From a bacterium HR11 (GTDB taxonomy: Bacteria > Acidobacteriota > HRBIN11): a stretch of DNA of 64,000 bases. The notes beneath the pieces were generated by a model that saw only the letters and a list, made by a program, of their open reading frames with translations, had not been told where the DNA came from and made no database searches. Positions 1 through 37,197 of the stretch are shown here, one piece after another. Positions within the stretch are counted from its first letter, which is position 1. Every line of letters starts with the position of its first letter. The DNA is taken from positions 62,001-126,000 of the forward strand of contig BEHN01000001.1 in assembly GCA_002898535.1 (NCBI GenBank), read 5' to 3'. Both the position numbers and the translations under genes were made by a program.

Positions 1-1151
1 CCCGTGATGTGCTCCCCGATGATCAGGGTGTGGATGTCGTGGGTCCCCTCGTAGGTATACACCGATTCCAGGTTGCACAGGTGGCGGGCGACCTGGTACT
101 CGTACATGATGCCGTTGGCCCCCAGGATGTCCCGGGCCAGGCGGGCGATCTGGAGGGCATGGTAGACGTTGTTCATCTTCCCCATCGAGACCTGCACGTG
201 CGTGACCTTCCCCCGGTCCTTGAGGCGCCCCAGCCTCAGACAGAGGAGTTGCATCTTCGTGATCTCCGTCAGCATGTAAACGAGCTTCTGCTGGACGAGC
301 TGATAGCCGGCGATGGGACGGTCGAACTGGATGCGATTTTTAGCATACTCGAGGGCCACTTCATAGCAGGCCATGGCCGCCCCGATGGCGCCCCAAGCGA
401 TGCCGTACCGGGCCTGGGTCAGACACCGCAGGGCCGCCTTCAGGCCGTTCGCCTCGGGGAGGCGATTTTCCTCAGGAATGCGGACGTCCTCCAGGACGAG
501 CTCGCCCGTGTCCGAGGCCCGGAGGGAGAACTTATCGGTAATCTTGTTCTGTCGGAAGCCGGGCGTCCCCTTCTCGACCAGGAAGCCCCGGATGACGCCC
601 TCGTCGTCCTTCGCCCAGACGAGGGCCACGTCGGCGATCGTCCCGTTGGTGATCCACATCTTGGTCCCGTTCAGGACCCACGAAGAGCCGTCCCTCCGGG
701 CTCGCGTGATGAGACCGGCCGGGTTCGACCCGTAGTCCGGCTCCGTCAGGCCAAAACAGCCGATGACCTCGCCCCGGGCCATCTTGGGGAGCCAGTACTG
801 CTTTTGCTTCTCTGAGCCGTACTCCTGAATCGGCCACATGACGAGGGACGACTGGACGGACACGAAGCTCCGCAGGCCGCTATCGCCCCGTTCCAGCTCC
901 TGCATGATGAGGCCATAGGCGACGTTGTTGAGGCCCGCACAGCCGTACTTCGGGTCGAGGTTTGCCCCCAGTAGGTTCAGCTCGGCCATCTGGGGGACGA
1001 GATGGAGCGGGAACGTGCCGGCCTCAAAGTGGCGAGCGATGATGGGTAGGACTTGGTCGTCGACCCAGCGGCGGACCTCGTCCCGGACCATCCGTTCTTC
1101 GGACGAAAGCTCCTCATCGAGTCCGAGAAAATCGACGCCTCGAAAGCCCAT
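1..1151 (-). CDS. gcdH: Glutaryl-CoA dehydrogenase-like acyl-CoA dehydrogenase (3' end cut by window edge)
   Basis: Flavoprotein expected to oxidise and decarboxylate glutaryl-CoA to crotonyl-CoA, passing electrons to ETF; cytoplasmic. Translation from the ATG at 1151 gives about 383 residues and runs off the left edge, so roughly the last ten residues are missing. The FAD/substrate segment CFGLTEPDYGSNP is present near residue 135, and the C-terminal YTYEGTHDIHTLIIG contains the glutamate that serves as catalytic base in this family and is typical of glutaryl-CoA rather than simple acyl-CoA dehydrogenases. The start is supported by a GGGAGG Shine-Dalgarno just upstream. A crotonase gene lies 132 bp upstream on the same strand, which fits a shared acyl-CoA pathway. 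A related acyl-CoA substrate cannot be excluded. Confidence 0.88.
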   Translation of the reverse strand, partial: MGFRGVDFLGLDEELSSEERMVRDEVRRWVDDQVLPIIARHFEAGTFPLHLVPQMAELNLLGANLDPKYGCAGLNNVAYGLIMQELERGDSGLRSFVSVQSSLVMWPIQEYGSEKQKQYWLPKMARGEVIGCFGLTEPDYGSNPAGLITRARRDGSSWVLNGTKMWITNGTIADVALVWAKDDEGVIRGFLVEKGTPGFRQNKITDKFSLRASDTGELVLEDVRIPEENRLPEANGLKAALRCLTQARYGIAWGAIGAAMACYEVALEYAKNRIQFDRPIAGYQLVQQKLVYMLTEITKMQLLCLRLGRLKDRGKVTHVQVSMGKMNNVYHALQIARLARDILGANGIMYEYQVARHLCNLESVYTYEGTHDIHTLIIGEHIT

Positions 1152-1283
1152 TTGGGCCTCCCGTCCCAAGAGCTATGGCGATAGGGCCCATGGGCCGGGC
1201 CGACGGCTCCATGCGAACGACAGAGCGAGGAAGTCCCCCCAGGCACCGCTTACGGCCGACGGCCCTATGAGCCTGACTGCCCC

Positions 1284-2114
1284 TTATTCCGTCCACGTCG
1301 GGGTCCGGCGTTCCAGCCACGCCCGGATGCCCTCCCGGGCGTCCGGTGTCGTCGCATGTTGGACCAGGTAGATTTCCTCGAGGGCCGCGACGGCCTCGTC
1401 CCAGTTCGAGAGGACCGACGCCCAGAACGCCCGCCGGCCATGGTGTAGGACCGACGTGCTCATCCCCGTCAGGTGTTGGACGAAACGTTCGGCCTGGGTC
1501 CGCCACTGGTCGGCCGGGAGCGCCCAGGCGACGAGGCCCCAGGCGGCCGCCGTCTTGGCGTCGACGACCTCCCCGCTGAGGGCCAAGTACAAGGCTCGGT
1601 TCTTCGGCATCAGGCGGGGATACAAAAGCATCGCCAGGGGCGTGAAATGGCCGTACCGGACCTCCGGATGGCCAAGGCGGACACCCTCCGGGGCAAAGGT
1701 AAAGTCGCAGACGGCCGCCAGGACACAACCGGCCCCAAAGGCGTGGCCGTTCAGGAGGCCGACGACGACGGCCGGCAGGGTCAGGACCTGTCGGACCACG
1801 CGATGGAACAGGTCGACCGTCAAAAACAGGTCCTCGTCCCGCATAGCCGCCGGGTCCAGACCGGCGGAGAAGTACTCCCCGCTGGCCGTCAGCGTGACGA
1901 CCTTCAGGCGGCCGTCGAAGGCCACCTCGGCCAAGACCCCCTGGAGCTCCCGCAGGAAGTCCGGGTCCATGTAATGGAGCGGGGGGCGCTGAAAGGTAAT
2001 CTGCAGGAGGGCCGGCGTCGGACGTTGGGCCTGGACGTATTGCCGATGGACGGCCTCGGCCGTGACCTCCGGCTCCACCCCTTCAAGGTCTTCGGGGCCC
2101 CACTCGTGGACCAT
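1284..2114 (-). CDS. Enoyl-CoA hydratase/isomerase (crotonase) family protein with one catalytic Glu missing
   Basis: A 276-residue crotonase-fold protein acting on a CoA thioester. The oxyanion-hole segments are visible (FSAGLD near residue 84 and NGHAFGAGC near 122-130). Standard enoyl-CoA hydratase uses two glutamates; here the first, normally in a GCELA motif, is replaced by Val131 (GCVLA), while the second is kept as Glu151 in HPEV. Proteins with only the second glutamate are often isomerases, dienoyl-CoA hydratases or ring hydrolases rather than hydratases of the FadB type. An unusual 30-residue N-terminal extension precedes the fold. It lies between gcdH and the ROK kinase on the same strand. 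Substrate is not identifiable from sequence alone. Confidence 0.8.
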   Translation of the reverse strand: MVHEWGPEDLEGVEPEVTAEAVHRQYVQAQRPTPALLQITFQRPPLHYMDPDFLRELQGVLAEVAFDGRLKVVTLTASGEYFSAGLDPAAMRDEDLFLTVDLFHRVVRQVLTLPAVVVGLLNGHAFGAGCVLAAVCDFTFAPEGVRLGHPEVRYGHFTPLAMLLYPRLMPKNRALYLALSGEVVDAKTAAAWGLVAWALPADQWRTQAERFVQHLTGMSTSVLHHGRRAFWASVLSNWDEAVAALEEIYLVQHATTPDAREGIRAWLERRTPTWTE

Positions 2115-2168
2115 CGGGTCAAGCCTCCATGGGGAGTGCCTTCGGAGACACCACCGGGCCTATGATAG

Positions 2169-3134
2169 CTACGCTGGCCTCGAAAGTCCAGAACGGATCT
2201 GCAAGCGGGCCCAGGCGGCCGCCCCGACGAGGCCGCCGTGACGGCCCAGGCCGGCCCGACGGACCTCTACGGTCCGGGCCGCCGAGGGCAGGGCCAGTTC
2301 CCGAATCGTCGCCGCCACGACCTCCGTCCACTCCGGGAAGCCCTGCAGGACCCCGCCGCCCAGGATCAAGCCCCGGGGGTTCAGGACATTGACGACCCCG
2401 ACCATCCCGATGCCCAGATAGCGGCCGAGCCGGGCTGACCATTCCCGGGCCCGGGGATGTCCCCGCCGGCAGAGGTCGGCCAGCGTTTCCGCCGTAAAAG
2501 TCTCCAGGGGGCCGACGCCGCCCCACGCGGCCGGATGGTCCCGAATGTCCTGCCGGACCTGTTCGGCGACGGCCCAGCCGCCGACGTACGCTTCCAGGCA
2601 TCCCCGGCCGCCGCACCGACAGGCCCGCCCGTCGGCGACGATGGGCATGTGGCCGACCTCGCCCAGGGAGCCGCTGGCGCCCGTCTGCAGACGCCCGCCC
2701 AGGATGACCCCGCCCCCGACGCCCGTGCCGACGAACACACAGACCAGGTCGTCCCAGTCCTGCCCGGCCCCGTAAGTCCGTTCGGCCCAGGCGGCCGCAT
2801 GGACGTCGTTGAGGACAAACACGGGCAGACCCAAGGCGCCTTCCAGCTCCGCCTTCAGGGGGACGTCTCGCCAGCCCGGCAGGTTGGGCGCATAGTAAAC
2901 GACGCCGGTCGACGCGTCGACCTGGCCGGCAAAGCCGATGCCGACGGCCCGGACGGGTCCCGGCGCTCGGTCCAGGGCGGCCTGGATGCAGGTCCGCAGG
3001 CGCTCCAAGACGGCCGCCGGTCCCAGGTCGGCCCGGGTCGCCTCCCGGTGGAGGCCCTGCACGGCACCCCCTTCGTCGACCAGGGCCGCCTCGATCTTCG
3101 TCCCGCCGATGTCCACGCCGACCGCCCAGTCCAT
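2169..3134 (-). CDS. ROK family sugar kinase (glucokinase-like)
   Basis: Cytoplasmic ATP-dependent sugar kinase of the ROK family, 321 residues. The N-terminal phosphate-binding motif DIGGTK is at 8-13 and the probable catalytic base Asp110 sits in LNDVHAA. The ROK zinc site is complete: His162 followed by Cys172, Cys174 and Cys179 in CRCGGRGCLE, with substrate-contacting Glu181. No N-terminal helix-turn-helix is present, so this is an enzyme rather than a ROK repressor. Glucose is the likeliest substrate, but N-acetylmannosamine or fructose kinases share these motifs. The start ATG lies just downstream of a heptamer repeat array. Confidence 0.88.
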   Translation of the reverse strand: MDWAVGVDIGGTKIEAALVDEGGAVQGLHREATRADLGPAAVLERLRTCIQAALDRAPGPVRAVGIGFAGQVDASTGVVYYAPNLPGWRDVPLKAELEGALGLPVFVLNDVHAAAWAERTYGAGQDWDDLVCVFVGTGVGGGVILGGRLQTGASGSLGEVGHMPIVADGRACRCGGRGCLEAYVGGWAVAEQVRQDIRDHPAAWGGVGPLETFTAETLADLCRRGHPRAREWSARLGRYLGIGMVGVVNVLNPRGLILGGGVLQGFPEWTEVVAATIRELALPSAARTVEVRRAGLGRHGGLVGAAAWARLQIRSGLSRPA

Positions 3135-3147
3135 AAGGCACCTCGCC

Positions 3148-3190
3148 GGATACAGGATGCAGGATACGGGATGCAGGATGCAAGATGCAG
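3148..3190. repeat. Heptamer tandem array (GGATGCA type)
   Basis: Six degenerate 7-bp units, GGATACA, GGATGCA, GGATACG, GGATGCA, GGATGCA, AGATGCA, followed by a CCCGGGTCCCG tract. It fills the gap between the divergent ROK kinase and mtaB. A related heptamer run occurs at 50436-50470. Confidence 0.8.
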
Positions 3191-3266
3191 ATTCCCGGGT
3201 CCCGTCTTGCGTCCGTCACCCCCGGTCCATATCTTGTATTCCGCATCTCGTCCTTCAGGACCGCCG

Positions 3267-4589
3267 ATGCGTGCACAACCCCAGACGTTTCACGTCGTGG
3301 CGATGGGCTGTAAGGTCAGTCAGTACGAGGCCCAGGCCCTGGGCGCCTACCTTCAACATCAGCTCGGCCTCCGGCCGGTCCCCCGGCCCGACGAGGCCGA
3401 CGTCGTCGTCCTGCAGACCTGTACGGTGACCCACCAGAGCGACCGGGAGGCCCGCAAGCTCGTGCGGCGCTTCAAGCGGGACGGCCGCGCCCGGGTCATC
3501 GTCACGGGATGCTACGCCCAGCGGGCCCCGGCCGAACTCCAAGAGGCCGGGGCCGACCTCGTCCTGGGGCACGGCGTGCGTCACCGGACCTGGCACATCC
3601 GGCGGTTTCTGTTCGGAGAAGACGTCCCCTTGCCGGACCTCCCCGAGTGGGCCGAGGCCTTCGGCCCGCCCGCCCTTCGAGAAGACCGGACTCGGGCGTA
3701 CCTGAAGGTCCATGACGGATGCGACGTCTTCTGCTCCTTCTGCATCATCCCCCACGTCCGGGGCCCCGGCCGGAGCCTCCCGCTCGACGAAGTCCTCCGC
3801 CGGGTCGAGGCCCTCGTCGAGCAAGGCATTCGGGAAATCATCCTGACGGGCGTCAACCTGGCCAGCTACGGTCGGGACCTGGGCCTGACCGACGGCCTCC
3901 TGCGGCTTTGCGAGCGCCTCGACGGCGTGGCCGCCGACGTCCAGTTCCGCCTCAGCTCCCTGGGTGCTTACGACCTGGACGAACGGTTGTTCGAGCTCGT
4001 GTGCGCCTCTCCCCGGTTCGCCCCCCACTTTCACCTGCCCCTGCAGAGCGCTTCGGACCGGGTCCTGCAGGATATGCGGCGGCCCTATCGTCTGCGGGAC
4101 TACGACCGGATCGTACGGTTCATCGCCGACCGGGGCGACCACGTCTGCATCGGCACCGACGTCATCGTCGGCTTCCCGACGGAGTCGGCGGCCGATTTCG
4201 AGGCCACGTACCGGTATATCGAAGAGAGTCCCATCGCCTACGTCCACGTGTTTCCCTACTCACCCCGGCCGGGAACCCTCTCGGCCAGCCTCTGGCGGGA
4301 GCTGGACCCGCGCGTCGTCGAGGAGCGCGCCCGCCGGCTCCGGGCCCTGTCGGCCCAGAAGCGGGAGCAGTTCTATCGCCGTCAGGTCGGCCGCTGGCTG
4401 AAGGCCCTGACGCTTCACCGCGCCGGCGACGGCCGGAGCCTTCGGGCCGTCACGGGCAACTACATCGAGTTCGCCCTTGACGATCCCGAGGCCCGATGGC
4501 CGGAGAACGCGTGGGTCCTCGTCCGATTCGGGGCCTACGAGAACGGCCGCTGGGTCGTCGCCGACGTCCGCCAAGCGCATGGGTCATAG
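3267..4589 (+). CDS. mtaB: tRNA t6A37 methylthiotransferase (MtaB-like)
   Basis: Radical-SAM enzyme that converts t6A at position 37 of ANN-decoding tRNAs to ms2t6A. The 440-residue protein has the three-part family layout: an N-terminal methylthiotransferase domain with cluster cysteines Cys15 (MGCKVSQYE), Cys52 and Cys82; a radical-SAM domain with CDVFCSFC (Cys152, Cys156, Cys159) binding the SAM-cleaving 4Fe-4S cluster; and a C-terminal TRAM-like region. The GCKVSQYE motif favours MtaB over MiaB or RimO. The ATG at 3267 is preceded by AGGA at suitable spacing; an open frame upstream of it has no conserved content. Another position-37 enzyme, miaA, is encoded at 36250-37197. Confidence 0.9.
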   Translation: MRAQPQTFHVVAMGCKVSQYEAQALGAYLQHQLGLRPVPRPDEADVVVLQTCTVTHQSDREARKLVRRFKRDGRARVIVTGCYAQRAPAELQEAGADLVLGHGVRHRTWHIRRFLFGEDVPLPDLPEWAEAFGPPALREDRTRAYLKVHDGCDVFCSFCIIPHVRGPGRSLPLDEVLRRVEALVEQGIREIILTGVNLASYGRDLGLTDGLLRLCERLDGVAADVQFRLSSLGAYDLDERLFELVCASPRFAPHFHLPLQSASDRVLQDMRRPYRLRDYDRIVRFIADRGDHVCIGTDVIVGFPTESAADFEATYRYIEESPIAYVHVFPYSPRPGTLSASLWRELDPRVVEERARRLRALSAQKREQFYRRQVGRWLKALTLHRAGDGRSLRAVTGNYIEFALDDPEARWPENAWVLVRFGAYENGRWVVADVRQAHGS

Positions 4590-18047: not shown

Positions 18048-18222
18048 CGAGGGGAATGGCCTGCATTCCCATCCGGTGCCGCTCGGGATGACAGCGGGAT
18101 GATGCCCGCCCCTGCGGCGGGTACTCCGAGCCGAGGCGACCCGACGGGCCGGCCCGACCGCCGCCGTTCCCGGCGGCCCCCGCATAGACAACCCCCGGGG
18201 TCGTCTCTACCCTTGTATCTTC

Positions 18223-18276
18223 TATCTGCCCACCTGCCGACTGCCAAACTGCCCGTCTGCCGAACCCCCGAACTCA
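18223..18276. repeat. Octamer array at the ruvA stop codon
   Basis: Units ATCTGCCC, ACCTGCCG, ACTGCCAA, ACTGCCCG, TCTGCCGA run directly into the ruvA stop at 18274, so the ruvA transcript ends in the repeat. Confidence 0.85.
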
Positions 18277-18870
18277 CGAAGCGGCCTTTCGGCGGAGGAC
18301 CTTCCGGAGGACGTCTTCGATGGGCTCGTCCGGCGGCGACTGCTGAAGCACGTCCCGGACGAGGGCTTCGACCTCCCGTCGGCTGTATCCCAGGACCTCT
18401 AAGGCCCGGAGGACCTCCTGAAAGCGGCCCTCGGAGACGGCCGTCGGGGAAGGCGCCTTTTCGGCCGCCACGCTCCATCGCTCCATAATAGGGGCCAGCT
18501 CGACGACGATCCGTTCACTGACCTTGGGGCCCACACCGGGGATTTCCCGCAGGCGCCGAGCGTCCCGCCGACGGACGATCTGAACAAACTCATCGGGCGT
18601 CATGTGAGACAGGATGCTCATCCCGATACGGGGACCGACGCCCTGGACCTTCAAGAGATGCTCGAACAGGCGGAGCTGGCGGTCGTCTTCAAAGCCGTAC
18701 AGCGTGATCTGGTCATCGGTGACATGGGTGTATATCCGAAGGGCCAGGGTCTGACCGACGGCCGCATGCAGGGTCAGGGGGACGTGCACGACGTAGCCGA
18801 CGCCTTGCACGTCCAGCAAAAGGCGTGTCGGCTCCCGTTCCAGGACTTGACCCCGGAGGTATCCGATCAT
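18274..18870 (-). CDS. ruvA: Holliday junction branch-migration protein RuvA
   Basis: Tetrameric junction-binding protein that recruits the RuvB motor; 198 residues, the usual length. Domain I (OB-fold) occupies about 1-63. Domain II carries two helix-hairpin-helix motifs, KVQGVGPRIG and REIPGVGPKV. The C-terminal RuvB-binding domain III is at about 150-198. It overlaps ruvC by 4 bp (ATGA), the common ruvC-ruvA arrangement; ruvB is not in the window. Confidence 0.95.
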   Translation of the reverse strand: MIGYLRGQVLEREPTRLLLDVQGVGYVVHVPLTLHAAVGQTLALRIYTHVTDDQITLYGFEDDRQLRLFEHLLKVQGVGPRIGMSILSHMTPDEFVQIVRRRDARRLREIPGVGPKVSERIVVELAPIMERWSVAAEKAPSPTAVSEGRFQEVLRALEVLGYSRREVEALVRDVLQQSPPDEPIEDVLRKVLRRKAAS

Positions 18871-19385
18871 CGACGACCCGAGTCGGCCCGAATTCCCGGT
18901 CCCGGGTCCCGGGACCGGGTCAGGATGTGACAGTAAGCCACGGCCAGAGCGTCAAAAGCGTCATCCGGCATGTGCGCCCACCGACGGGTCTCCGGCAGGA
19001 GGGCGTAGAGATACCGTCGGACGGCGCTCTTATCGGCATGGCCGGCCCCCACCACGGAGCGTCGGACGACCGAGGCCGGATACTCCGTCCACGGGTAGCC
19101 GTTGCGGGCAAGGGCCGTCACGACGACGCTCAGGACGTGCTCGACCCGAAGACCGCTCCGGGGGTACCGGGGATGGATAAAGGGGGCCTCAACGGCGACG
19201 GCGTCCGGCCCATACGTCTGGAGCCAGGCCTCCACGGCGTCGTATAAGTCCCGAATCCGGTCCACCCAACGGGTACACGAAGGACGCCAGTATCCCAACT
19301 CGACGACCCGTCCGACCGAGCCGTCCCACGCCAGGAGGGCGAAACCTGTGCACAGCGTACCCGGATCGATGCCCAGGACCTGCAT
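18867..19385 (-). CDS. ruvC: Holliday junction resolvase RuvC
   Basis: Dimeric endonuclease that resolves Holliday junctions; 172 residues. The four acidic active-site residues of the family can be placed: Asp7 (LGIDPG), Glu66 (AVEAPF), Asp142 and Asp145 (PDDAFDALAVAYCH). The C-terminal 15 residues (SRDPGPGIRADSGRR) are encoded by a CCCGGGACCCGG-type heptamer repeat (18894-18921) and extend past the usual end of the fold. It lies six bp downstream of yebC and is coupled to ruvA. Confidence 0.94.
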   Translation of the reverse strand: MQVLGIDPGTLCTGFALLAWDGSVGRVVELGYWRPSCTRWVDRIRDLYDAVEAWLQTYGPDAVAVEAPFIHPRYPRSGLRVEHVLSVVVTALARNGYPWTEYPASVVRRSVVGAGHADKSAVRRYLYALLPETRRWAHMPDDAFDALAVAYCHILTRSRDPGPGIRADSGRR

Positions 19386-30099: not shown

Positions 30100-30717
30100 A
30101 TGGCACGGTTTCAGTCGCCACCGGAAAATGCCGTCCAGGTCCCCCTGACGAGACGGCGGGTCGTCCTACTCTTTATCGGCCAGCTTGTGCTCCTGGGGGC
30201 TGTTTTCCTCCTGGGTTTCTGGGTCGGTCGAGGCCAACGTCACTTGGAGGAACAGCTATCGACGCCTGTGACGCCGCCGGTCATTACCGAGCCGGGACCC
30301 CCGGTGACGCCGGTCGAGGAGCCCATGCCGTCTTCAGCGGGCGCGCCTCCGACGGGCGGGATGCCCTCTGCCCCGCCGCCGACGCCTTCAGCGAGTCCGT
30401 CCCCGGCGCCCCCGGCCGGACCAGCCGAGGTGCCGTCTCCGAAGCCGCCTCCGTCGTCGCCTCCGACCGAACCCCCGTCGGTGCCGGCGGGAAAATTTGT
30501 CCTCCAAGTCATCGCCCTTCAGGATTCGGCGAAAGCCCACGCCCTGGTCGAGAAGCTGAAAGCGCAAGGGCTCCCGGCCTATATGGAGCCCTCGGCGAAG
30601 GGCCTGTACCGCGTCCGGGTCGGACCCTATGCGACCCGTCGGGAGGCAGAGGATGCGATCACGCAAGTCCTGAAGGTCATCCCTGAGAGCAAACCCGTGG
30701 TCCAGAGTACGCCGTGA
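30100..30717 (+). CDS. Membrane-anchored SPOR-domain protein
   Basis: A 205-residue single-pass inner-membrane protein. After a short basic N-terminus comes one transmembrane helix (about 19-43). Then follows a long Pro/Ser/Thr-rich periplasmic linker (about 52-130) and a C-terminal SPOR domain (about 131-205) with FVLQVIALQDSAKAHALVEKL and YRVRVGPYATRREAEDAI. SPOR domains bind denuded septal peptidoglycan, so a cell-division or envelope role is likely. The stop overlaps the start of the next gene by 4 bp, linking it to the degenerate secretion-ATPase-like protein. Confidence 0.87.
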   Translation: MARFQSPPENAVQVPLTRRRVVLLFIGQLVLLGAVFLLGFWVGRGQRHLEEQLSTPVTPPVITEPGPPVTPVEEPMPSSAGAPPTGGMPSAPPPTPSASPSPAPPAGPAEVPSPKPPPSSPPTEPPSVPAGKFVLQVIALQDSAKAHALVEKLKAQGLPAYMEPSAKGLYRVRVGPYATRREAEDAITQVLKVIPESKPVVQSTP

Positions 30718-32363
30718 CGCCGGTGGGTGAGTGGCTGATATCGACGGGTCTATTGACGCCCGTACAAGTCCAACAGCTTCTCCGATCGGCAGAGGGGGCC
30801 GACGACCTCACTTTAGCGGCGTTGGCCGTCGAGCGAGGATGGATCTCGGCGGGTGAGCTCTTTTATACCCTGAACCATGCGCCGATCCCGTCGGCATCCG
30901 ACGTCGGCTCGGCCGATGACCTTGCCTCGGTCGAGACGGGACCCGAAGCCATCGCCCGGCCCTGGGCCTTGATCCCTTGGGGACGCTGGGGAGAAGCGAT
31001 CGTCATCGGGAGCTTCCGATGGGTCCCGACTCCCCTGCGAGCGGCTCTCGCCTGGTTGTCGGACCGCCCCCTCCGCTGGGTCCTCCTGCCCGTGGACGCG
31101 TGGCGTCCCTGGGGTCGGCAACGTCGCTCGGAATGGTCTCGACTGGAGGCGGCGGGTTTTCAGGTGGACGTCCTACGACCCTGGGTCTTTTCACCCCGGG
31201 CGGGGGAAGACACCTTTTGGTCCTTTCAACTTCAGGAGAGCATCCGCTACCGGCGGTCCTTTTTTACGGTCCATCAGACAGGCGGTGAAGCGTGGGTCGA
31301 CTATCACACACCGGAACGGGCCGTCCGGGTTTTAGAGCCGTCGTTATTCGAGCAAGTCTGGCGTCAGGCCGACATGGGTCAGGCTTGGATGGACCTGGCC
31401 TTTTTCCCAGAGCGGTCCGGGCTGTGGTGGGTCGACCTGCACCGCCGACGGCTGGCGTGGCTGTTTCAACTGACCCGCCGGGGGGACCATCGGCTCGGCT
31501 GGATGCGGCTGATCGAGCCGACCCGTTGGCAGCGCACGCTCGAAGAAAACATTCACTGGGGCGACCTCTGGGCGGCCCTCCGCCGGTGGGCGACCCAGGA
31601 AGCCGCCGGGGTCTGGCTCTTGGTCGGGCCGACGGACATCGTCAAGGCGTGGTGGACGGTCCGACTCGTCCAGCAACTTGCAGAAGTGACGCCCTTTCCC
31701 TGGGTCGGGGTCCATGACCGGTGGGGTCAGTGGGACGGCCTGACGGAGGTCGTCCCGACCGAGGCCTTTCCCCGATGGCTGGAGAAGCATATGGACGAGC
31801 CAGGTGGCATCCTGGCCGAATGGAATGGCCTACCCCAGATGTTCCAGGCGCTCCTGCTGGCCAGTAGCCGGAAGCCGGTCCTGGTCAGCGTCGCTTATCC
31901 GACGCCCCTCCATGCGATTCATCGGCTGTGGCACATGGGCTTCGCGTCGGCCCTCCGGGCCGGTCGTCTCCGGGGTTGGGTGGCCGTCGTCACGCCTCGG
32001 GTGAACTGCGGATGGTGTGCCGAGCCTTACCGCATGCCGACCGCCCGGACCGCCTCCCAGGTCCCTGCGGGGATAGAACTCGCCCCTTCCGATTTGGGGG
32101 CCTATTCCCGGGGATGCTCCGTCTGTCAGTTCATGGCCCCTTGGCAGGATGCCGAGGCCCTGTATGAAGCGATGGTCCTCCCCACGGAAGCGTTGCGCTC
32201 CCTCCGCACGTTCCAGGACTTGGTCCACGTCTTGCCCCCCGCCCCGAAAACGCTCTTGGCCGCCCAGGTCCTTGAAGGGTTACGGTCAGGCCGCATCGAT
32301 GCCCGCTGGGCCCTGCGATTCCTGGCGAACATGGCGACTTGGCCAGCCGGCGAGTCCGAGTAA
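30714..32363 (+). CDS. Degenerate GspE/PilB-type secretion ATPase-like protein (probable pseudo-ATPase)
   Basis: A 549-residue protein whose C-terminal half follows the GspE/PilB layout. Its Walker A position reads GPTDIVKAWW (305-314): Lys311 survives, but two of the three glycines and the Ser/Thr of GPTGSGKTT are gone. The Asp/Walker B region (normally VGEIRD) reads AEWNG. The segment HAIHRLWHMGF and the four-cysteine zinc site (Cys432, Cys435, Cys468, Cys471; NCGWCAEPY then GCSVC) remain as in GspE. The N-terminal 55 residues resemble the helical MshEN/GspE-N repeat. It overlaps the SPOR gene by 4 bp. Its last 78 bp overlap the convergent lnt gene. ATP hydrolysis is unlikely; a structural or regulatory role is inferred. 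Confidence 0.72.
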   Translation: MTPVGEWLISTGLLTPVQVQQLLRSAEGADDLTLAALAVERGWISAGELFYTLNHAPIPSASDVGSADDLASVETGPEAIARPWALIPWGRWGEAIVIGSFRWVPTPLRAALAWLSDRPLRWVLLPVDAWRPWGRQRRSEWSRLEAAGFQVDVLRPWVFSPRAGEDTFWSFQLQESIRYRRSFFTVHQTGGEAWVDYHTPERAVRVLEPSLFEQVWRQADMGQAWMDLAFFPERSGLWWVDLHRRRLAWLFQLTRRGDHRLGWMRLIEPTRWQRTLEENIHWGDLWAALRRWATQEAAGVWLLVGPTDIVKAWWTVRLVQQLAEVTPFPWVGVHDRWGQWDGLTEVVPTEAFPRWLEKHMDEPGGILAEWNGLPQMFQALLLASSRKPVLVSVAYPTPLHAIHRLWHMGFASALRAGRLRGWVAVVTPRVNCGWCAEPYRMPTARTASQVPAGIELAPSDLGAYSRGCSVCQFMAPWQDAEALYEAMVLPTEALRSLRTFQDLVHVLPPAPKTLLAAQVLEGLRSGRIDARWALRFLANMATWPAGESE

Positions 32364-33899
32364 ACCCAGCGTCGCTACCCAGCTCAATGTATCGACGGCC
32401 CATCCCCACCGGACCCAGACGGTGAGACCGCCGGTCATTAAAGGAACCCGGCCGTCGTCTACGGCCGTCTCGACCCACAGCGGCGTCTTCCACCGAAGCG
32501 TTCCGTCGGGGTCCAGACGGGCCGAAATCCCCGAGTTGGCCACAAACAGCATGGCCCGTCGGGTTTCGACGACCCGCAGACGCGTGTGGAGCAGGTGCTG
32601 AAAGGCCCCCGAACTCCGGCCGAACCAGGCGTCGTTCGTGACCGTAATGAGCAGACGGGCCCCGGTCCGGACGAGACGCCGGCTCAGGTCCGGGAAGATG
32701 CTTTCGAAGCAGACCTGAACACCCAGGCGCCCCCAGGGCGATTCGATGGGCTTTAAGCGGGTGCCCGGCGCGAAGTCTCCGATCCCCTGGACCATCCGTT
32801 CGACAAAGAAGAGGACGGAAGCCAGGGGGACATACTCCCCAAAGGGGACCAGGTGAACCTTGTCGTAGAAGTCCACGACCCGAAGCTCGGGGTCGAGCAG
32901 AAACACACTGTTATGGACGACTGGTGGACTTCGGCGTGCCCACCGATCGGCTCCGAGGAGCAGGTAGGCCCGATTGTGGGACTGGAGGTCCTGTAAAAGA
33001 CCCCACCAGACGGTGTCCGGCCCGAGGTAAAAGGGGACGGACCCCTCGGGCCACACGACCAATTGAACTCGGCCCGGCTCGTCCAGGTAGCTGAGGTCGA
33101 CCTGCCGACGGAACCAGTCCAAGGCCCGGAGGGCCGTCATCTTGAGGTCCTGGGGGATGCTGGGCTGGACGATACGAACGGACAGGGTCTCGGTCCGGGC
33201 CGCCTGAGCCCGCCAGTACCGCTGGGCCCACCGCCCGTAAGCCCACGGCAGGACCCACAGCAAAATCAGTACAAAGATGGCACGTAGCGACCGGCGAATG
33301 GCAAGTCCCAAATTCGCCATTCGCCATTCGCCATTCGCCATCCCCATGAGGGCCCAGCCGGCCAACAGGAGCCATCCCCCCAAAGCAAAACCGCCCAGGA
33401 GGTCGGCCCATTGCACGACCCAGGGCCATTCGACCAGGAGAGTTTCGACCTGACCCCACGGGAAGCCTGTCAGTACAGTCGAACGGACCTGCGAGAGACC
33501 CACCCACAGAAGCGCCCCTACCCAGGGCCAAGCCCAAGCCCCCCAGGGGTATCGACGGAGGCGCACGACAGTCCACGCCCAGAGGCCCCAGTATGTCCCC
33601 AGGTAAGCGTCCAGCAAGAGGATCAGGAGCCATGCGACCGGCCCGGGCGTCGTCGAGTACGTCACGACGGTCCCCGGAAGCCATGCCAAGACAGGCACGT
33701 AGAAGAGAGTCCCGGCGGCCCAGCCGACCCAGCCAGCCCGGCCGGCTGAATCGATCCGACCGACCCATCGAGTCCAGAACGCCGCCCCGACGACGGCCAG
33801 GACGGGCCTCAACCAAGGCGGGGTCTCCTGAAAAAACCCGGCCGCCCATACGACGGCCCCGGCGAAGGGCTCCCACGGGACCTGCACCTTCCATCCCAT
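32286..33899 (-). CDS. lnt: Apolipoprotein N-acyltransferase
   Basis: Inner-membrane enzyme that adds the third acyl chain to lipoproteins; 537 residues. The N-terminal half is a multi-pass membrane region, followed by a nitrilase-like periplasmic domain with the catalytic triad Glu285 (VVWPEG), Lys347 (YDKVHLVPFGEY) and Cys397 (VQVCFES), then a final helix. Residues about 187-200 (MANGEWRMANLG) are encoded by a 9-bp tandem repeat that has inserted in frame into a loop between membrane helices. Its 3' end overlaps the convergent GspE-like gene by 78 bp. Presence of Lnt supports a diderm envelope. Confidence 0.93.
   Translation of the reverse strand: MGWKVQVPWEPFAGAVVWAAGFFQETPPWLRPVLAVVGAAFWTRWVGRIDSAGRAGWVGWAAGTLFYVPVLAWLPGTVVTYSTTPGPVAWLLILLLDAYLGTYWGLWAWTVVRLRRYPWGAWAWPWVGALLWVGLSQVRSTVLTGFPWGQVETLLVEWPWVVQWADLLGGFALGGWLLLAGWALMGMANGEWRMANLGLAIRRSLRAIFVLILLWVLPWAYGRWAQRYWRAQAARTETLSVRIVQPSIPQDLKMTALRALDWFRRQVDLSYLDEPGRVQLVVWPEGSVPFYLGPDTVWWGLLQDLQSHNRAYLLLGADRWARRSPPVVHNSVFLLDPELRVVDFYDKVHLVPFGEYVPLASVLFFVERMVQGIGDFAPGTRLKPIESPWGRLGVQVCFESIFPDLSRRLVRTGARLLITVTNDAWFGRSSGAFQHLLHTRLRVVETRRAMLFVANSGISARLDPDGTLRWKTPLWVETAVDDGRVPLMTGGLTVWVRWGWAVDTLSWVATLGLLGLAGWPSRHVRQESQGPAGIDAA
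33311..33342. repeat. 9-bp tandem repeat inside lnt
   Basis: Three and a half units of ATTCGCCAT, read on the coding strand as ATGGCGAAT. Because 9 is divisible by 3, the frame is kept. A related 9-bp array is intergenic at 47168-47216. Confidence 0.88.
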
Positions 33900-34844: not shown

Positions 34845-35090
34845 GAGGGCCGGTCCGACCGATTGCCAAGGGACCGGAAGGCCAGATATCATGGTATTTG
34901 GCAGTTCGGGCATGAGGGTGTCGGTCCGAATCTCCTGAAGCACTCACGATCATGCCGGTGGCCTGAGCCGCGATGTACCTCATCGCGGCGTCCGGACTCA
35001 GCGCTTCCGGGAAAGGCGCCGGACGTCCCGGGGGCCGCTACTTCTCCCAGGACCGGCGGCACCCCGAGGCGTTACTATCGCCTGTCTATC

Positions 35091-35152
35091 CCCAGACTGC
35101 CGAATGGCCGGACTCCCGAATTCCCGAACGGCCGGATTCCCGAAGGGCCAGC
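35091..35152. repeat. Octamer array before the PATAN-like gene
   Basis: About seven units: CCCAGACTG, CCGAATGG, CCGGACTC, CCGAATTC, CCGAACGG, CCGGATTC, CCGAAGGG. It ends next to a GGAGG ribosome-binding site at 35155-35159. Confidence 0.85.
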
Positions 35153-35164
35153 ATGGAGGCATCC

Positions 35165-36241
35165 ATGGATGCCTTGCGCGGCACCCATGGCGAAGTCCCT
35201 GTATGGATATGCCTGAAGTGGCTGGAGCGAACGCCGACGCGCGGCCTCCTGGGTTTCCAGACAGCCGGGGTGGAACGTTGGTTCTGGGTGCTGGACGGCC
35301 ACGTGGTCTTTGCCTGGAGCGGCAACCCCGCCGAGCATCTGTTCGACCGCTGGCGGTCGGCCGGTTGGGTCCCGGACGTCGCCGCTGTCGGGACGGGGCC
35401 TCCGTCCTCCATGGCTCCCGAGAGCCTTCTCTCGGCTTTGCCGCCGGCCGTGACGGAAGCCTCCGAGTGGGAGTCCTTTTGGACTGGCTACTACGTCGAG
35501 CTCCTGAGTCGGGTCCTGCAAGCCCTGCCTGACGTGCAGTACTTATGGGTTCCGCATGCTTGGACCTCCCATCCTCGGATGGTCGCCCTCCCGATAGCGG
35601 TCTGGGTCGAACAGGCCATCGAGCGAGTGCCCGAGGTGGCCGTCCTGCGGGACGAACTGACTCGAGTGGGGACGTCGCTGGAAGTCCGCGTCCCGACCGT
35701 TCCCGCGCCTGAATCCCTCCGACCGAGTCAGCGACAGGTCCTCGACTTGATCCAGGGGCCCGTCCCCTTAGCGGAGCTCCTGCAAGCCCCTCTTTTTCAG
35801 GACGACGCCTACCTTCGGGCCCTCTGGACCCTCGTGTACCGGGGCACGCTCCAGATCCAGCCGGCGACCCGGTCGGCTCCGACGCTTCAGGAACTCCTGG
35901 ACTTTTACTCGGCGGCCTTCTCGGCCGTAGGCCGCTACCTGGAGCGGGAAATCGAGAGCCTGGCCCCCCTGGTCCTTCAGAAGAACGTGACCCGGATGGA
36001 GGCGACGTATCCAGAGGTTTTTGAGAACCTCACGCTGGGTCCGGACTACCGGATCGACCACTGGGAGCCCCAGTTGAGGTCCCTCCTTCGTCAGCGGCTT
36101 ATCACGTTGGATGACCTGCGTCACTTCCTGGAGGAGACGCTCATGCTCCACCTGCTGAGCGTCCAAAACATCCTGGGCCCCGCCCATTACACGACGGTCG
36201 TCGAGATCCTGCAGGCCCTCCCGACGACCCCGGCCCGGTAG
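35165..36241 (+). CDS. PATAN/DUF4388-like domain protein
   Basis: A 358-residue cytoplasmic protein of uncertain role. The N-terminal 50 residues (LERTPTRGLLGFQTAG, then WFWVLDGHVVFAWSG) resemble the DUF4388/PATAN fold found in response-regulator-associated and gliding-motility proteins. The remainder is largely helical, with no catalytic motif and no transmembrane segment; the C-terminal 120 residues look like a helical bundle. The ATG at 35165 follows GGAGG by 5 bp. An open frame upstream to 34973 reads through the octamer array and is not considered coding. It sits 8 bp upstream of miaA and is probably co-transcribed with it. Confidence 0.6.
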   Translation: MDALRGTHGEVPVWICLKWLERTPTRGLLGFQTAGVERWFWVLDGHVVFAWSGNPAEHLFDRWRSAGWVPDVAAVGTGPPSSMAPESLLSALPPAVTEASEWESFWTGYYVELLSRVLQALPDVQYLWVPHAWTSHPRMVALPIAVWVEQAIERVPEVAVLRDELTRVGTSLEVRVPTVPAPESLRPSQRQVLDLIQGPVPLAELLQAPLFQDDAYLRALWTLVYRGTLQIQPATRSAPTLQELLDFYSAAFSAVGRYLEREIESLAPLVLQKNVTRMEATYPEVFENLTLGPDYRIDHWEPQLRSLLRQRLITLDDLRHFLEETLMLHLLSVQNILGPAHYTTVVEILQALPTTPAR

Positions 36242-36249
36242 CCCCGCTC

Positions 36250-37197
36250 ATGGCCTGGGTGGTATTCATCGTAGGCCCGACCGCCAGCGGCAAGTCGGCC
36301 TGGGCGTTGGACCTGGCCGTCCGATGGAACGGGGCCATCGTGAACGCCGACTCCCGTCAGTTCTACCGAGATGCCCGTATCGGGACGGCCTGTCCCCCGG
36401 TCGAGTGGTTCCAGCGGGTGCCTCATCGGCTCTATGCCTTTCTCCCGCCGGACCGATGGCTCTCAGCGGGGACCTATGCCGGGATGGCCTGGGGTGCCAT
36501 CCAAGAGTGCTGGCGTTTGGGCCGTCTGCCCATCGTCGTCGGGGGGTCGGGCCTCTACTATCGGGCCGTGCGGTACGGCTTGCATCCACCCGTCGGGGCC
36601 GACCCGGCGGTCCGCCGACGCCTGGAGGAACGATGTCGGCAAGAGGGCGTGGCGGCGCTCTATGCGGAGCTTCAGGCCGTCGACCCGGCGACCGCCCGGC
36701 GGATTCACCCCAACGACGCCCGGCGGGTCCTGCGGGCACTGGAGATCTACTACCAGACCGGCGAGCCTCCGTCCCGCTGGCGGCCGGGCTGGCGACACCC
36801 GGTCCTTCCCTCGGCGGCCCTGGGTCTCCTGCCCCCACCGGACCGTCTTCAGGAGCAGATCGTGCGACGGAATCGGGCCTTCTGGTCGATGGGCTGGCTC
36901 GACGAGGTCGTCCGACTGATCGAACAGGGCGTACCCCTCGACGCCCCCGTCTTTGAGTCGATCGGGTATCGGCGGATCGCCGAGTGGTGGCAGGCCGGCC
37001 GCCCCATCTCTGAGGCGGACCTCCTGGCCCAGGTCGACCGGGAGGTGTGGGGCCTGGCCCGACGTCAGATCAAATGGTTTCGCCGAGAGCCAGACGTCCT
37101 GTGGTGGACCGAGCCGCCGCCCTTGCCTGTCGTCGAACGATTCCTCCGCCCGAAGCTCCGCTGGCCCTCGGGACTCGGCATCGGGTACCCCTCATGA
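36250..37197 (+). CDS. miaA: tRNA dimethylallyltransferase MiaA
   Basis: Transfers the dimethylallyl group from DMAPP to A37 of UNN-decoding tRNAs; 315 residues. The P-loop GPTASGKS is at 9-16. NADSRQFYR and GGSGLYYRAVRYGL are diagnostic family motifs, and the C-terminal region has RRQIKWFRRE. Starts 8 bp after the PATAN-like gene. Its 3' end overlaps the convergent exonuclease gene by 6 bp, leaving no room for a separate terminator. Confidence 0.94.
   Translation: MAWVVFIVGPTASGKSAWALDLAVRWNGAIVNADSRQFYRDARIGTACPPVEWFQRVPHRLYAFLPPDRWLSAGTYAGMAWGAIQECWRLGRLPIVVGGSGLYYRAVRYGLHPPVGADPAVRRRLEERCRQEGVAALYAELQAVDPATARRIHPNDARRVLRALEIYYQTGEPPSRWRPGWRHPVLPSAALGLLPPPDRLQEQIVRRNRAFWSMGWLDEVVRLIEQGVPLDAPVFESIGYRRIAEWWQAGRPISEADLLAQVDREVWGLARRQIKWFRREPDVLWWTEPPPLPVVERFLRPKLRWPSGLGIGYPS

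Follow-up and report, generated by a model that had tools for sequence, protein, structure and literature searches.

The window (the whole 64,000-nt stretch of DNA analysed) contains a gene pair coding for a SPOR-domain membrane protein and, directly downstream, for a highly diverged homologue of the PilB/GspE motor ATPases that has lost its catalytic motifs, referred to here as pseudo-PilB. Homologues of this kind were found in 30 of 396 Acidobacteriota genomes, in eight family-level lineages. The gene pairing and the motif losses suggest that the window protein may be a septum-linked, non-hydrolysing, PilB-derived adaptor or signal protein that acts on type IV pili or on a different machine of the envelope, a reading to which we assign a probability of about 0.45. 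An earlier note on this DNA had considered such a pair to have no obvious known counterpart; indeed, neither the SPOR/pseudo-PilB pair nor any PilB/GspE pseudoenzyme was found described in the open-access literature searched. As far as that literature shows, a conserved pseudoenzyme family of a PilB/GspE motor is undescribed, and it occurs in a large and poorly studied phylum.

RESULTS

The pseudo-PilB gene is intact and overlaps a SPOR gene

The pseudo-PilB gene begins with a GTG codon followed by an open frame (549 codons in all; Table 1). Its start and the stop codon of the SPOR gene share a GTGA tetranucleotide, an overlap that probably couples the translation of the two genes. The 4-bp coupling to a SPOR-domain protein had been correctly described in the earlier note; the word 'fused', however, does not apply, as these are two coupled genes rather than one.

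Table 1. Features of the SPOR/pseudo-PilB locus (positions in the window)
Feature	Position	Strand	Basis
SPOR-domain membrane protein, 205 aa	30100..30717	+	Pfam SPOR, hydropathy
SPOR domain; denuded (septal) peptidoglycan is its predicted ligand	30487..30669	+	Pfam, PMC6895207
Pseudo-PilB (549 aa), PilB/GspE homologue with degenerate catalytic motifs	30714..32363	+	Profile homology, dN/dS
GTGA overlap, 4 bp, SPOR stop/pseudo-PilB start	30714..30717	+	Sequence
N-terminal region resembling MshEN; in the window's genus its two c-di-GMP motifs have degenerated	30723..31010	+	phmmer match to PilB 26-123, motif residues
Remnant of Walker A, GPTDIVKAWW, with K311 but without Gly, Gly and Thr	31626..31655	+	Alignment
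Remnant of Walker B, AEWNG, without the GE-RD signature	31815..31829	+	Alignment
Zinc tetracysteine C432-x2-C435 ... C468-x2-C471	32007..32126	+	Kept in 26/26 pseudo-PilBs
lnt, apolipoprotein N-acyltransferase	32286..33899	-	Pfam LNT_N, CN_hydrolase

The gene was intact in three congeneric MAGs (identities of 95% and 86%). Within the genus, dN/dS was 0.14–0.23, indicating purifying selection, and changes at the three codon positions numbered 60, 28 and 132, third positions thus being dominant. The three MAGs and the purifying selection rule out an assembly or frameshift error. The possibility of an orphan gene confined to one genus was also discarded, the family being spread across the phylum. 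The branch leading to the window's genus is nevertheless very long (4.47 changes per column in the tree), and Trp makes up 6.9% of the window pseudo-PilB versus 0.3–0.7% of the relatives and intact PilBs checked. A high Trp content was also observed in the window ORFs at 32286-33899 (8.0%) and 36250-37197 (5.7%), compared with 0.3–0.7% in the genome's own PilBs; in the three ORFs this looks like compositional drift of the fast-evolving proteins of this genus.

The upstream protein matched Pfam SPOR over residues 130–190 (E-value 1.6e-13; 51.2 bits versus a curated cut-off of 21), and was homologous to the SPOR protein encoded upstream of pseudo-PilB at locus L023 (E-value 7e-19). Its short N-terminus, predicted to be cytoplasmic, carries an RRR cluster and is followed by a single predicted transmembrane helix at about residues 21–39 (hydropathy maximum at residue 21), a Pro-rich linker and the C-terminal SPOR domain. 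The hydrophobic stretch following the RRR cluster suggests an N-in topology. SPOR domains are described in PMC6895207 as binding denuded peptidoglycan, and a septal location of the protein is predicted from this domain. From the gene pairing we infer that the SPOR protein and pseudo-PilB associate physically.

Pseudo-PilB descends from PilB/GspE

The window pseudo-PilB had no match in Pfam or NCBIfam, so its recognition as a GspE/PilB-like protein needed independent proof. A single-sequence phmmer search of the PDB gave only a weak match to PilB (E-value 0.059), located at both ends of the query (residues 4–99 and a stretch around the Cys motif). When 60 relatives were searched with the single protein, matches were limited to the window's genus, and a contig scan with it returned two congeners only; the wider relatives emerged from profile searches. 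AlphaFold2, run on three near-identical sequences (those of the window and the two congeners), produced an unreliable model (pLDDT 37.3, pTM 0.30).

A profile of the genus gave weak matches to proteins of 550–570 aa in other Acidobacteriota. One of these, the 549-aa L023 protein from another family of the same class, contains PF00437 (E-value 1.7e-18) as well as MshEN; across L023, L064, L069 and L071 the PF00437 E-values ranged from 2.4e-17 to 5.4e-27. Aligned with hhalign, the genus profile matched six relatives with a probability of 97.4% over 485 columns. In the reverse direction, a profile of the relatives built without the window protein retrieved it from among the 321 ORFs of the window (E-value 3.8e-10), and a profile of intact PilBs did so with an E-value of 4.5e-5. 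Further, the profile of the SPOR-linked group (defined below) matched PilB in the PDB over nearly its full length (E-value 1.5e-91). These links through the relatives, together with the PilB match of the SPOR-linked group, make it well supported that the window protein descends from PilB/GspE and has diverged far from it. The earlier identification as a degenerate GspE/PilB-like protein was therefore borne out, with PilB ahead of GspE: the NCBIfam PilB model outscored that of GspE in every relative scanned (PilB E-values of 3.9e-25 to 7e-44). In the tree, all the pseudo-PilBs lay on one side of a branch with 99/99 support, separated from the intact PilBs; this is compatible with a single origin of the pseudo-PilBs, within the limits set by long branches and an inferred root.

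The catalytic motifs are lost and the zinc site is kept

The motifs were compared in 26 aligned pseudo-PilBs and 16 intact PilBs. A complete Walker A (GxxxxGK[ST]) was present in all 16 intact PilBs and in none of the pseudo-PilBs, and the same was true of the Glu at the Walker B column (16/16 versus 0/26). The Glu-Asp of the Asp box was kept in two of the 26 pseudo-PilBs and in all 16 intact PilBs. Orthologues with intact Walker motifs were looked for; the motifs were missing from those of the genus and from another 24 members of the family. Conversely, the four zinc Cys residues were conserved in every protein of both sets (26/26 and 16/16), and C432, C435, C468 and C471 of the window protein match them, in agreement with the tetracysteine first noticed. 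A zinc-bearing PilB scaffold can, it appears, persist without catalysis.

In the window pseudo-PilB the residues of the Asp box, the His box and the Arg fingers are all gone. Its Walker A segment reads GPTDIVKA, with K311 aligned to the Walker A Lys, while E369 lies one column off the Walker B Glu and could come into register if one gap were moved; the loss is thus of whole motifs and not of every residue. The earlier description of Walker A and Walker B as destroyed holds at the level of motifs, not of each residue. AEWNG is the Walker B segment as proposed, but it is not the Asp box, which is located further upstream and has also disappeared. These losses suggest a pseudo-PilB that does not hydrolyse ATP.

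Spread and gene order in Acidobacteriota

Two profile searches covered the 396 Acidobacteriota genomes, with neighbouring genes taken from mechanically called ORFs. The second search split the proteins cleanly, full-length members scoring at least 400 bits and intact PilBs at most 315; two of the 30 carriers (G214 and G356) contributed fragments. The orthologues with a SPOR neighbour suggested as a check were found: a SPOR gene lies directly upstream, on the same strand, in all 18 genomes of what is here called the SPOR-linked group, which comprises six family-level lineages (f1, f2, f3, f8, f19 and f47). The 4-bp overlap recurs at L011 and L012; in most other lineages the gap ranges from -4 to +10 nt, and at L023 it is 150 nt. 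No SPOR gene was seen beside the intact PilB loci scanned, several of which were short. The other 12 carriers, in lineages f5 and f31, have no SPOR neighbour, and a different small protein is encoded upstream (L030:5647-6108, L027:5508-5972 and similar). This protein has some 155 aa, a hydrophobic N-terminus and no Pfam match.

An lnt gene was found downstream of pseudo-PilB in f3, f19 and f47; of the two loci in f8, L069 has it as well. In these lineages it lies on the same strand, while in the window it is convergent and overlaps the pseudo-PilB gene tail-to-tail by 78 bp (32286-32363). We know of no role for lnt in pili. A band-7 (SPFH) gene was also among the neighbours; none of the SPOR, cyclase (see below), lnt and band-7 genes is a pilus gene. 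A 422-aa ORF of the window (34973-36241), flanked on both sides by well-annotated genes, has only a weak match to DUF4388 (E-value 0.029); proteins like DUF4388 may be encoded near the f31 pseudo-PilBs as well.

PilM was present, by our count, in 28 of the 30 carriers versus 311 of the 396 genomes overall; since most non-carriers have it too, its presence is uninformative as a tie to pili. An intact PilB-type match was found in the carriers checked, except in one genome that is 63% complete. On contig C187 of genome G003, the SPOR/pseudo-PilB pair (984-3386) lies about 15 kb from PilM (18113-19126); a PilM on the same contig was not seen in the other carriers for which its place was listed.

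A possible link to c-di-GMP in the relatives

In lineages f19 and f47 a diguanylate cyclase gene immediately precedes the SPOR gene. The RxxD and GGDEF motifs of the cyclase were intact in the eight loci that were read through, and a GGDEF frame precedes SPOR in two more. The c-di-GMP motif domain NF053729 scored above its cut-off in the proteins of L023, L064, L065, L071 and L025; it was not recognised in the window protein or in L069. In MshEN domains, c-di-GMP is bound by two 24-residue motifs of the form RLGxx..Q (PMC5013675). In all 26 pseudo-PilBs other residues stand in for the first Arg of motif I and for the final Gln of motif II, and in the window protein the Arg and Gln of both motifs have been lost. 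Given these replacements, the relatives could plausibly, though not certainly, bind c-di-GMP, and the window protein is unlikely to do so. The arrangement suggests an ancestral module of cyclase, SPOR protein and pseudo-PilB. The window's genus is the most diverged branch of this module, with neither a cyclase neighbour nor a c-di-GMP motif, and the c-di-GMP input appears to have been lost from it.

DISCUSSION

A possible function and its alternatives

The proposal that a catalytically dead secretion-motor homologue is tied to a septal peptidoglycan binder is supported by the loss of the motifs throughout the family and by the conserved gene pairing. In the reading we favour, the SPOR protein, with its N-terminus inside and its SPOR domain in the periplasm, would hold pseudo-PilB, on the cytoplasmic side, where septal peptidoglycan is denuded, at the division site and future pole. 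Held nucleotide-free, pseudo-PilB might dock the usual partners of PilB on the PilM/platform side, and so position or gate type IV pili or a different machine of the envelope; c-di-GMP would originally have exerted local control over this. Peptidoglycan-binding FimV and PilQ recruit the pilus machinery to future division sites (PMC5285504), a PilB deficient in ATP binding still signals in Myxococcus xanthus (PMC5544727), and a division-site cyclase sets the pilus machinery at new poles (PMC11255338); these three precedents make such placement and partners reasonable to propose. Against this, the link to pili is weak, as most non-carriers likewise have an intact PilB and PilM; the f5/f31 clade keeps pseudo-PilB without SPOR; the window's genus lacks the cyclase and the c-di-GMP motif; and lnt, with no known role in pili, is the commonest downstream gene.

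A second reading is a component of the divisome or envelope independent of pili. Here the PilB fold would have been co-opted as the cytoplasmic part of a regulator of division or the envelope that SPOR anchors and that c-di-GMP switched in the ancestor. The neighbours, with no pilus gene among them, and a distribution that does not track PilM are consistent with this, but pseudo-PilB descends from a pilus motor, no pilus-independent partner is indicated and the clustering with lnt may reflect the chromosomal background; we regard it as a doubtful explanation that nonetheless deserves consideration. In another reading, pseudo-PilB would join PilB hexamers, or compete with PilB for the platform protein, and tune pilus assembly as a subunit without hydrolysis, the SPOR gene being only co-transcribed. 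Its length and domain order are like those of PilB throughout, the carriers checked have an intact PilB-type match apart from the incomplete genome mentioned above, and motor partner pairs such as PilT-PilU, as well as TfpB, are known (PMC11656802). The loss of the intersubunit Arg-finger residues speaks against this, however, nor does it account for a pairing with SPOR that is obligate in six lineages, and we consider such modulation unlikely.

Two further alternatives concern the state of the window protein itself. Its long branch and unusual Trp content might reflect a relic losing its function in this genus after the c-di-GMP motif and the cyclase were lost; the frame, though, is intact in three species, dN/dS and the pattern of codon positions indicate constraint, and the zinc Cys residues and the SPOR overlap have been kept, all of which makes decay very improbable. 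A residual or unconventional ATPase, with K311 and the shifted E369 supporting nucleotide binding or slow hydrolysis, is barely credible: K311 is aligned, E369 is within one column and the relative L064 keeps GPDGSGRT, yet the Walker A glycines and Thr, the Asp and His boxes and the Arg fingers have all gone, and even the Lys is missing from most relatives.

One may tentatively envisage, with rather more doubt than confidence, a previously undescribed positioning module of Acidobacteriota controlled by c-di-GMP and consisting of a cyclase, a SPOR anchor and a dead PilB. In such a module a former motor would act as a landmark or relay at the division site, tying cytokinesis to the placement of an envelope machine, and the window's genus would carry a c-di-GMP-independent derivative. 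To our knowledge, the targeting of pilus machines to new poles has been described only in a few proteobacteria and myxobacteria. A dead motor paired with a binder of septal glycan, and in relatives with a cyclase, is a concrete candidate for coupling division, c-di-GMP and pilus placement.

Other PilB-like genes and comparison with known systems

Other PilB-like genes were observed in the same genome. On contig C24 (L006:799-2646), a second PilB-like protein (615 aa) is independently degenerate, with SSPPMHGAITT at Walker A. Its N-terminal segment is rich in Cys, and a c-di-GMP motif domain was recognised in it; membership of the SPOR-linked family was considered for this protein but rejected, as the tree groups it with the intact PilBs. 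A PilB/GspE-like ATPase on contig C22 (L003:697-2673) keeps Walker A and is followed by a kinase-like-looking ORF. On contig C1, near 55 kb (L007:231-2400), the gene of a PilT-like ATPase that also keeps Walker A comes right after an ORF for a protein kinase (Pfam Pkinase, 2e-19).

Several known systems resemble parts of the pair. The SPOR protein shares its domain with proteins of the FtsN/DedD/RlpA type, and its layout with one membrane helix is like that of FtsN and DedD; it differs in scoring below their full-length equivalog cut-offs and in being paired with a pseudo-PilB. A logic like that proposed here may be seen in the polar landmarks FimV, HubP and TspA, in which a peptidoglycan-binding membrane protein and a cytoplasmic partner place pili, although these are single proteins that carry both LysM and TPR domains and no PilB-derived part, and the likeness is one of analogy only. 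In M. xanthus, DmxA produces c-di-GMP at the division site and so places the pilus machinery at new poles; it is recruited through its own transmembrane domain, and the resemblance is to the cyclase-bearing relatives, not to the window. We know of no SPOR or pseudo-PilB partner of DmxA. The N-terminal region is homologous to that of the MshEN receptors of c-di-GMP (MshE, M. xanthus PilB and Thermus thermophilus PilF; NF053729), whose model recognises several relatives, but the family departs from them in the replaced Arg and Gln, and the domain of the window protein is unrecognised. PilB itself (TIGR02538; PF00437 and PF05157) is the best-scoring family for the relatives, and with it pseudo-PilB shares the domain order MshEN-N2D-CTD and the zinc tetracysteine; the window protein is 17% identical to the PilB of its own genome, and is set apart from PilB by the lost Walker A and B motifs, Asp box, His box and Arg fingers, and by a SPOR gene of its own.
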